From the NCBI GenBank assembly GCA_013203245.1, contig JABMOR010000084.1, positions 1 to 32,155 on the forward strand: a stretch of 32,155 nucleotides of DNA. The letters run 5' to 3'. Shown piece after piece: positions 11,414 to 25,973 of this stretch (position 1 is the stretch's first letter; each line of letters begins with the position of its first letter). Source of the DNA: Candidatus Nitrosopumilus sp. Lineage in GTDB: Archaea > Thermoproteota > Nitrososphaeria > Nitrososphaerales > Nitrosopumilaceae. The position numbers and the translations under genes are program-made. The notes under the pieces are model-generated. The model searched no databases. It had not been told where the DNA came from and worked only from the letters and a program-made list of their open reading frames with translations.

Positions 11414-12160
11414 TTAAATTAAAAATTCCGCAGCGTTTTTACCTTCCTGAGTAATTTTTATCCAACGATTCCTACCAATCTTTTCAATCTCTACAAAATT
11501 CCATTCATCAACTAGTGGTTGTATGATATTTTTATCAAGACTTGCAAATCTTGCCTGTGAATGATTTTTTTCCTCTGAATTTACTGTGATAATTTCTTGT
11601 TTTTCAGCAAGTTCTGCCATTTCTTTTTTTGTAATCTTTTGATTCTTTGCCTGTTGAACTATTTTTAATGCCTGTAATAATTTTGGTTTTGGTATTTGGA
11701 TTTCATATGTTGGCAAGGGTATGGTGTCTTTGATTCCAAATGACTGCTGTTTTCCTTCAAAGGCTGCATACTTTTCTGGTTCTGCGTAAAATGGTTGAAG
11801 ATTTTTACATTCTTTTAAAACCATGCATGCCATCATGCATGCAATTGCTTGAATCTTTGATCCTGATGCGACATTGACATAGATGTAGTTATTTTTTTCT
11901 TGATTAATTACATCTTTAATTGACTTTATTGTTTGAAACAAATTCAGTCTATTACTGTAAGCAACCTTTACTTCAACTCCCAGTTTTTTACATTCTTTTT
12001 TTATTTTCTCAAGATATGGCCCTGACAAATCCGATGAACGATTATCATGGGCCAATAACCATAGTTTGTCGGCTTTTGTCTGTTTGAGTGGAATGGTAAT
12101 CCTGTCAATTTCAAAGCCTAAAGGGGCAATATGCACTCTAAACGTGGCTAGATTTGTCAT
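11414..12160 (-). CDS. CARF-type winged-helix regulator (HFX_2341/DUF6293-like)
   Basis: A 248-residue protein when started at the ATG at 12160. The N-terminal half (FRVHIAPLGFEIDRITIPL, then ADKLWLLAHD, then YIYVNVASGSKIQAIA) has the Rossmann-like pattern of CARF domains, including the family's HIAPLGFE-DR opening and a GSK ligand-binding loop. The C-terminal 80 residues form a winged helix (KKEMAELAEK, FVEIEKIGRNRWIKIT). CARF domains bind cyclic oligonucleotides or related nucleotides, so it is probably a ligand-controlled transcription regulator. No CRISPR array or cas gene is in the window. The track start at 12181 lies upstream of the predicted transcription start and is rejected. Confidence 0.75.
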   Translation of the reverse strand: MTNLATFRVHIAPLGFEIDRITIPLKQTKADKLWLLAHDNRSSDLSGPYLEKIKKECKKLGVEVKVAYSNRLNLFQTIKSIKDVINQEKNNYIYVNVASGSKIQAIACMMACMVLKECKNLQPFYAEPEKYAAFEGKQQSFGIKDTIPLPTYEIQIPKPKLLQALKIVQQAKNQKITKKEMAELAEKQEIITVNSEEKNHSQARFASLDKNIIQPLVDEWNFVEIEKIGRNRWIKITQEGKNAAEFLI

Positions 12161-12172
12161 AATAGTATCTAC

Positions 12173-12184
12173 AGTATGCATACT
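12173..12184 (-). promoter_or_regulatory. Palindromic operator at the CARF regulator promoter
   Basis: AGTATGCATACT is a perfect 12-base palindrome placed at the predicted transcription start of the minus-strand regulator, between its TATA box and the ATG at 12160. It is a likely autoregulatory site. The octamer CATACTAT at 12179-12186 is also found at 932-939 in the RHH-like operator. Confidence 0.45.
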
Positions 12185-20677: not shown

Positions 20678-21652
20678 ATGGGTTATTATAGGAAATCAAC
20701 AGCACAATATTGGATTCCTTTGGTTGAACAAATTATTAAAGCAGATTCGACATGTGGTCGTTGTGGAAAAAATTCCATGCTGGCTGACAATGTTACTGGA
20801 GAGAGATTCTGTGGAAAATGTGGTTTTGTTATTACTGAAACTTTACAAGATTCTGGTCCTGAATGGAGATCATTTTCAAAAGAAGGTGGTGCAGATCCAA
20901 CTCGTACTGGTGCTCCAACATCATTAGCAATGCACGATAGAGGACTTGCAACAATCATTAGTCCTATGAATAAAGATTCTTCTGGAAAACCTCTTACGTC
21001 AACAATGAAGAGTACTATTGAAAGACTACGAACTTGGGATAGTAGAAGTAAAGTAAATGCCTCATCTGATAAAAATCTCAGACAAGCACTAAGTGAATTA
21101 TCTACATTAAAAGACAAACTTTCATTATCTGATGCTGTTATTGAAAAAGCATCATACATTTACAGAAAAGCATTGGAGAAAGGTCTCGTCAAAGGTCGTT
21201 CTATTTCTGCATTAATCGCAGCATCTCTTTATGCTGCATGTAGAGATACTGAAACTCCTAGAACTCTAAAAGACGTTGCTGATGCAGGCAACATTAAGAA
21301 AAAAGATATTTCAAGATGCTATAGAATTTTACATCAAGAATTAGAATTAAAAATGCCTGTTGTAGATCCAGTGCAATGTGTTGCAAGAATTGCAAGCTCA
21401 ATTGGAATTACAGAAAAAACAAAACGATTTGCAGTTAAAGTACTTAGAGATGCACAGGCACATGAAGAATCTGCTGGAAAGGATCCGATGGGATTGGCAG
21501 CAGCAGCATTGTACTTGTCTTGTGTGAAAAACGGTGAGGATAAAACTCAACGAGATATTGCAGAAGCAGCAAATGTAACAGAAGTGACAATTAGAAATAG
21601 ATACAAAGGCTTACGATTAGACCAAAATATGGATACATTGGGAGGCAAATGA
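20678..21652 (+). CDS. tfb: Transcription initiation factor B (TFB/TFIIB)
   Basis: A 324-residue basal factor that bridges TBP and RNA polymerase and recognises the BRE. It has an N-terminal zinc ribbon (CGRCGKN..., then CGKCG), the B-reader/linker region with EWRSF, and two cyclin-type repeats, each ending in an AAALYxxC-type helix (ALIAASLYAACRDT; GLAAAALYLSCVKN). The second repeat has the helix-turn-helix that reads BRE (TQRDIAEAANVTEVTIRNRY). TBP is encoded four bases downstream. A candidate TATA (TTTTTATGG, about 20,606-20,614) would give a leader of 35-40 bases, longer than in neighbouring genes. Confidence 0.95.
   Translation: MGYYRKSTAQYWIPLVEQIIKADSTCGRCGKNSMLADNVTGERFCGKCGFVITETLQDSGPEWRSFSKEGGADPTRTGAPTSLAMHDRGLATIISPMNKDSSGKPLTSTMKSTIERLRTWDSRSKVNASSDKNLRQALSELSTLKDKLSLSDAVIEKASYIYRKALEKGLVKGRSISALIAASLYAACRDTETPRTLKDVADAGNIKKKDISRCYRILHQELELKMPVVDPVQCVARIASSIGITEKTKRFAVKVLRDAQAHEESAGKDPMGLAAAALYLSCVKNGEDKTQRDIAEAANVTEVTIRNRYKGLRLDQNMDTLGGK
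21641..21645 (+). promoter_or_regulatory. Shine-Dalgarno site for tbp inside the tfb end
   Basis: GGAGG lies in the last codons of tfb and 11 bases before the ATG of tbp, indicating that the two factors are translated from a shared mRNA. Confidence 0.45.
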
Positions 21653-21656
21653 AAAT

Positions 21657-22217
21657 ATGACTCAAACTAAACCTATCATTGCAATTGTAAATGTAGTAGC
21701 CTCTGCAACGATTGAACAAAAATTAGACCTTGTAGATATTACTAAAAAATTCCCTGCAGTTGAATATCATCCTGAACAATTCCCTGGTGCCGTTTTCAGA
21801 CTAAAAAGTCCAAAGACTGCAACACTGCTTTTTGGTTCCGGAAAGATGGTATGTACAGGGGCAAAATCTCAAGAATTAGCAGAAACTGCAGTTTTTGAAG
21901 TAGTGAAAATTTTAAGAAAAGGTAAAATCAAAATCAAAAACGATCCTATAGTTTCTATTCAAAATATTGTATCTTCAATTAATCTTGGAGGTAAAGTAAA
22001 CTTGGAGCAAGCTGCTAGAACCCTCCCTAGAAGTATGTACGAACCAGAACAATTCCCTGGACTAATTCACAGGATGCTTGATCCTAAAACAGTAATTCTA
22101 ATTTTTGCATCAGGCAAATTAGTTTGTGTTGGAGCAAAACTTGAAAAAGATGTCCATCGCTCTGTCAACCAAATTCATGCTTTGCTTGAAGAAAAAGACT
22201 TGATGGTTTACGATTAA
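21657..22217 (+). CDS. tbp: TATA-box-binding protein
   Basis: A 186-residue protein made of two direct repeats of about 90 residues: YHPEQFPGAVFRL...LLFGSGKMVCTGAKS and YEPEQFPGLIHRM...LIFASGKLVCVGAK. This is the saddle that bends TATA DNA. Its acidic C-terminal end is short. It sits in one transcription unit with tfb. Confidence 0.95.
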   Translation: MTQTKPIIAIVNVVASATIEQKLDLVDITKKFPAVEYHPEQFPGAVFRLKSPKTATLLFGSGKMVCTGAKSQELAETAVFEVVKILRKGKIKIKNDPIVSIQNIVSSINLGGKVNLEQAARTLPRSMYEPEQFPGLIHRMLDPKTVILIFASGKLVCVGAKLEKDVHRSVNQIHALLEEKDLMVYD

Positions 22218-25197: not shown

Positions 25198-25869
25198 ATG
25201 GATTCCACGGATGTAGTAGATGAGGTAAATTCTCTGCTAAAATTGGGTGTTGGTGATCCATATAGATTAGAGCACATAAAACAAACTTATATTCAAAATC
25301 AAAAAATCTGGATCACTGATGAGAATTATCTAAAACGTCTGAGAGAAAAGTATCTTGCTAAACATAATTCTGATATTCAAACTAACGATGAAATTGTTTT
25401 TGAAAATGAACCTGAAGATAAAGAAACTATTCATTGTTGGAAATGTGGAAAAAAAGGTCCAATAGGTGCTAATTTCTGCATGCTTTGCGGTACTTCTATT
25501 TTTGAAGTTGGTGCAACTCCAAAACCTGTCCTAGAATCTAAAAGTTTCACAAAATCTATCCCGTTAAAAATTCCAATTATTATCGGAATTCCTGTTTTAA
25601 TATTGATAATACTCGGTGCTGGATATTCTCAAGGATATTTTGATAATGTATTGGATTCATCATCTGATAAAATTACCACTGTAATGGAGGATGAAGAAAT
25701 TTTCTATGGTGAATTTGATTCAAAATGTGGCGCTGGAACTGTTCTTAATCCTGAAACTAATGCATGTGTGCTTGGTAGTGTAAAAGTAGCAAGTTCTGGT
25801 GAATTTGATTCAAAATGTGGTACTGGAACTGTCTTTGATTCTGAATCCAATTCATGTGTTCTTGGATAA
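25198..25869 (+). CDS. Zinc-ribbon membrane protein with two Cys modules
   Basis: A 223-residue protein. Residues about 1-65 form a helical domain; CWKCGKKGPIGANFCMLCG (about 80-98) is a double CxxC zinc ribbon; IPIIIGIPVLILIILGAGY (about 124-142) is a membrane segment. Two nearly identical copies of a 23-residue module follow at the C-terminus (GEFDSKCGAGTVLNPETNAC and GEFDSKCGTGTVFDSESNSC, each followed by VLG) with two Cys each. The modules probably lie outside the cell with a disulfide each, the ribbon inside, a layout suggesting a sensor or anchoring role. It ends 6 bases before the 3' end of the tRNA gene on the other strand. Confidence 0.7.
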   Translation: MDSTDVVDEVNSLLKLGVGDPYRLEHIKQTYIQNQKIWITDENYLKRLREKYLAKHNSDIQTNDEIVFENEPEDKETIHCWKCGKKGPIGANFCMLCGTSIFEVGATPKPVLESKSFTKSIPLKIPIIIGIPVLILIILGAGYSQGYFDNVLDSSSDKITTVMEDEEIFYGEFDSKCGAGTVLNPETNACVLGSVKVASSGEFDSKCGTGTVFDSESNSCVLG

Positions 25870-25875
25870 ATAAAA

Positions 25876-25973
25876 TGGTGGACCGAATGGGATTTGAACC
25901 CACGACCTTTGCGGGAAGTTAATTCCTTACGCAGTGTGAGTGCGTCATCCAAACCAAACTAGACGACCGGTCC
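25876..25973 (-). tRNA. tRNA-Val (anticodon CAC) with a 20-base intron and encoded CCA
   Basis: Minus strand. The acceptor stem GGACCGG pairs with TCGGTCC, followed by A and CCA. The D arm is GTCT...GGAT; the anticodon stem ACGCA/TGCGT encloses loop CTCACAC with anticodon CAC (reads GUG). The T arm is GTGGG-TTCAAAT-CCCAT. Between the anticodon stem and T arm there are 25 bases instead of 5. The extra 20 (25908-25927) fold as a bulge-helix-bulge: central TGCG/CGCA, bulge TAA on the 5' strand, bulge AAG on the 3' strand, inner hairpin GGAA-TTAAC-TTCC. Cutting after the second base of each bulge leaves the variable loop AGGTC and a 75-base tRNA. The intron therefore lies after base 44, not at the usual 37/38. 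Confidence 0.85.

Follow-up and report, generated by a model that had tools for sequence, protein, structure and literature searches.

The tRNA-Val(CAC) gene of a Candidatus Nitrosopumilus genome, from the marine ammonia-oxidising archaea, almost certainly carries a 20-nt archaeal tRNA intron of the protein-spliced kind, inserted at 44/45, a non-canonical position. It lies in the stretch of DNA analysed here (the window; 32,155 nt; Table 1), and its reading as a variable-loop intron with a relaxed, HBh'-like bulge-helix-bulge (BHB) motif is supported, on sequence grounds, by a position shared across the family, covariation of its helices, intron-free orthologues with the predicted junction, and a two-subunit splicing endonuclease (EndA). 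Introns of this type are well known and this one is unsurprising; the modest new content is its distribution, with one non-canonical intron traced through a whole archaeal family and its presence and absence seen in near relatives at the same loci.

Table 1. Elements of the tRNA-Val(CAC) gene and its intron, in window coordinates.
Feature	Position	Strand	Basis
tRNA-Val(CAC), complete	25973-25879	minus	ARAGORN, Rfam RF00005
5' exon, tRNA positions 1-44	25928..25973	minus	tRNA calls and element mapping
Anticodon CAC	25938-25936	minus	tRNA calls and element mapping
Non-canonical intron, 20 nt, at 44/45, AGGAATTAACTTCCCGCAAA	25908..25927	minus	Element mapping, conserved position in relatives
3' exon, tRNA positions 45-73	25879..25907	minus	tRNA calls and element mapping
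Central helix, 5' strand TGCG (anticodon-stem 3' strand, 39-42)	25930..25933	minus	Mapping, alignment
Central helix, 3' strand CGCA (same sequence as 28-31, 5' strand of the anticodon stem)	25910..25913	minus	Paired in 88/88 versions
5' splice-site bulge TAA, predicted cut after TA	25927..25929	minus	TAA/TAT in 81/88 versions
3' splice-site bulge AAG, predicted cut after AA	25907..25909	minus	Mapping, alignment
Inner intron hairpin GGAA-TTAAC-TTCC	25914..25926	minus	Covarying stem
Inner helix arms GGAA and TTCC	25926-25923 and 25917-25914	minus	Mapping

ARAGORN calls a tRNA-Val(cac) at 25876-25973 on the minus strand and reports no intron, reading the extra bases as a long variable region, while the Rfam RF00005 match (25879-25973, 46.3 bits) places an insertion of ~21 nt there; the gene is confirmed here, together with an intron that goes unreported by a plain tRNA finder. 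Anticodon-stem position 43 and T-stem position 49 are separated by 25 bases instead of 5, which puts the insert inside the tRNA gene and outside position 37/38, and the stems and loops of the tRNA are all intact. The initial annotation had proposed a 20-base intron in this variable loop whose removal would restore five bases: element mapping reproduces its boundaries to the base, splicing in silico leaves AGGTC, a normal 5-nt variable loop (44-48), and intron-free orthologues likewise have 5 nt. The tRNA gene is convergent with a plus-strand gene for a zinc-ribbon protein (25198-25869) with a duplicated C-terminal segment (EFDSKCG.GTV), which ends about 10 bases from the tRNA 3' end.

The proposed geometry, with a TGCG/CGCA helix, TAA and AAG bulges, an inner hairpin and a weak outer helix, is present in full. 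The 4-bp central helix lies between two 3-nt bulges, and the outer helix consists of two contiguous base pairs (C38-G46 and A37-U47) followed by a C-C mismatch and is not conserved in relatives, so that the motif falls outside the strict hBHBh' class with its stable, conserved outer helix. CGCA in the intron duplicates the 5' strand of the anticodon stem; TGCG can therefore pair either within that stem or with the intron, and the cloverleaf and the BHB fold exclude each other. In a nearest-neighbour model the two are about equal, at -25.0 kcal/mol for the cloverleaf with the intron hairpin and -23.4 kcal/mol for the BHB fold.

A search over 61 genomes found the gene in most of those belonging to the same genus. 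The intron sits at the identical position in all 30 of the closest relatives fetched, with a loop that varies in sequence and length, and a pattern survey detected it, unchanged in position, in 18 of the 20 genera sampled in the family, including records named Nitrosopumilus, Nitrosarchaeum, Nitrosotenuis and Cenarchaeum; in this survey nothing matched in genus g29. It is absent from the listed genes of Nitrosopelagicus (g33), from most of those of Nitrosotalea (g34) and from three of the four genomes of g37. For covariation we used 88 distinct stem/intron combinations, which are related sequences, so that the counts gauge how consistent the pattern is and should not be read as independent events. 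All versions have a paired central helix, its outermost pair being T-A in 71, A-T in 6, G-C in 6, G-U in 4 and U-G in 1; when the anticodon stem changes, the intron changes with it. An inner stem of at least 3 bp, also covarying, occurs in 87 of the 88, and 96% of the cells of its first four pairs are paired, whereas re-dealing the inner-stem 3' arms 2000 times gave a mean of 72% and at most 77%. If no paired structure existed, such changes on both sides, seen in several genera, would be difficult to account for. As all 30 fetched relatives carry the insert and both helices are maintained by compensatory changes, its presence is not due to chance.

These data also bear on two readings in which the insert is not an intron. 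It could be a long variable arm retained in the mature tRNA, as in class II tRNAs, to which the ARAGORN call and the hairpin within the insert would lend themselves; yet tRNA-Val is a class I tRNA, short loops are the case in the genome's other Val tRNAs, orthologues without the intron have 5 nt, so that no long variable region is conserved among them, the insert varies between 16 and 28 nt over the 88 versions, and covariation of its 3' portion with the anticodon stem would not be required of an arm. We regard this reading as highly improbable. Even less credible is a gene that a 20-nt insertion has turned into a pseudogene: the genome also encodes a Val(TAC) tRNA, which could read GUG by wobble, but the intact stems and loops of the gene, the identical position of the insert across the family and the structural constraint on it speak against decay.

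If the insert is a real intron, its cut register could still be shifted. The sequence allows a junction at either 43/44 or 44/45 with an identical product, and the unconstrained minimum fold (-34.0 kcal/mol) has a BHB-like core in a shifted, 3-bp register, GCG/CGC, with a bulge AAA. Nevertheless, the 4-bp helix and the two 3-nt bulges are kept in all 88 versions and the compensation at the outermost pair has no place in the 3-bp register, making a shift very unlikely. We place the junction at 44/45 by the rule that cleavage follows the second base of the bulge. The spliced loop is AGGTC in 80 of the 88 versions.

For the intron at 44/45, the following course of splicing can be proposed. Before splicing, TGCG on the 3' side of the anticodon stem would pair with CGCA of the intron instead of its usual partner, giving a 4-bp central helix flanked by the inner intron hairpin and by little or no outer helix; the cell's heteromeric (αβ)2-type endonuclease would cut each 3-nt bulge between its second and third bases, and a ligase would join the exons into a class I tRNA-Val with the variable loop AGGTC. 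Cleavage, ligation and the order of these events are what we infer from the motif. It is conceivable, though rather doubtful, that the anticodon arm can form only once splicing has acted on one particular fold of the precursor, and that repeated in-place loss at two conserved chromosomal sites offers a natural test of the intron's function.

According to the literature, non-canonical introns demand an endonuclease of broad specificity. The genome encodes two EndA (PF01974) proteins, and, as far as genes alone can tell, they amount to an enzyme of the heteromeric, broad-specificity type, consistent with this demand. The catalytic subunit has the Tyr/His/Lys pattern (VYEKGPG...DHAPF...SVRK); its best match in the PDB (E 9e-42) is the (αβ)2 enzyme of Aeropyrum pernix (3P1Z, 3AJV), to which it aligns along its length; the extra loop is covered too, and a lysine in it aligns to Lys44 of the Aeropyrum enzyme. 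The second protein lacks the catalytic His and is therefore assigned as the putative structural subunit; it is distant from the Aeropyrum enzyme (E ~1e-7, to the catalytic chain) and best matches that of M. jannaschii (1A79). Heteromeric endonucleases have been linked to non-canonical introns, and Thaumarchaeota combine α2β2 enzymes with such introns (PMC4090602, PMC8450103). Every intron-free genome checked also has both genes, in keeping with a continued need to splice other tRNAs; a locus-by-locus survey of the tRNAs in the genome of the window found further intron-bearing genes, e.g., for Tyr, Ser(GGA), Gln(CTG), Leu(CAA) and elongator Met. An intron in the D loop, with a clean BHB motif (GCGC-AGA-GTCA-ATA-TGAC-GCGC-AAC), seems to be present in L215 (G000:C99:9085-9148), a tRNA-Arg(CCT)-like gene missed by ARAGORN.

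The comparison with orthologous genes that the initial annotation had suggested finds, next to the family-wide intron, intron-free genes with the spliced loop. They occur in families f2, f7, f12, f13 and f14 and in Nitrosopelagicus, and their loop is mostly AGGTC, as predicted for the spliced tRNA. The intron-free gene of Thaumarchaeota archaeon 13_1_20CM_2_39_20 (L064) equals the spliced gene of isolate TA_20 (L079) in all but one D-loop base. The tRNA gene lies near sucCD in 100 of 116 intron-bearing loci, and we considered whether intron-free genes, which are not near sucCD, are merely relocated copies; this is countered by neighbours common to both states at two loci. L079, with the intron, and L066, L095 and L139, without it, share gene neighbours at the same place, as do L142, with the intron, and the intron-free L123 and L161 of Nitrosopelagicus and the related L049. 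Presence and absence in common neighbourhoods at two loci imply repeated loss, which would be the simplest reading of these gene neighbourhoods; the intron is of old standing in the family and was probably lost several times. As the usual route of loss, a simple exact deletion suits L064 alone; position 43 also differs in most intron-free genes (G for T) and position 44 in some, and recombination or later compensatory change may possibly lie behind them.

Outside the family, introns at 44/45 were found in family f10, where they are unrelated in sequence, and in one genome of f8 (G255), whose assembly is fragmentary and may be mis-binned. In the latter, the intron (L194/L228, G255:C19) has a G-U pair in its central helix (TGCG/CGTA) and the contig carries a partial sucD; it represents either a real deep occurrence or contamination. 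In another family, a tRNA-Val(CAC) gene (L209, G217:C5) has a 13-nt intron-like insert near 43/44 with the helix CAGC/GCTG, possibly an independent gain. A thaumarchaeal tRNA-Val with the intron was also collected from a contig labelled Acidimicrobiia bacterium (L109), whose neighbours are common to a Cenarchaeum-labelled locus and which is probably mis-binned or mislabelled.

Archaeal non-canonical tRNA introns, relaxed HBh' motifs and the α2β2 endonucleases of Thaumarchaeota are established (PMC4090602, PMC3218864), and the general picture of archaeal tRNA splicing is unchanged by our results. Relaxed HBh'/hBH motifs at 45/46 and other non-canonical positions are described for Crenarchaeota and Nanoarchaeota (PMC4090602); the present intron resembles them in being short and outside 37/38, with a central 4-bp helix, 3-nt bulges and a weak or missing outer helix, but differs in its position, 44/45 instead of the listed 45/46, and in its mesophilic lineage. 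The tRNAscan-SE 2.0 paper describes a dedicated covariance model for Thaumarchaeota and counts 107 non-canonical introns in this phylum (PMC8450103), and our case resembles the BHB introns of that phylum in lineage, motif and (predicted) removal by EndA. That program would very probably list the intron in relatives, and our literature search found no paper that names it. Its distribution is usable for testing the gain, loss and function of introns.

Elsewhere in the window, the minus strand at 11414-12181 encodes an HFX_2341-like protein with a CARF domain and a winged helix (PF19810, PF22665), kin to CRISPR-associated regulators, and on the plus strand (20678-22217) an apparent transcription factor B gene lies directly 5' of a TATA-binding protein gene (PF00352), with 4 bases between them.
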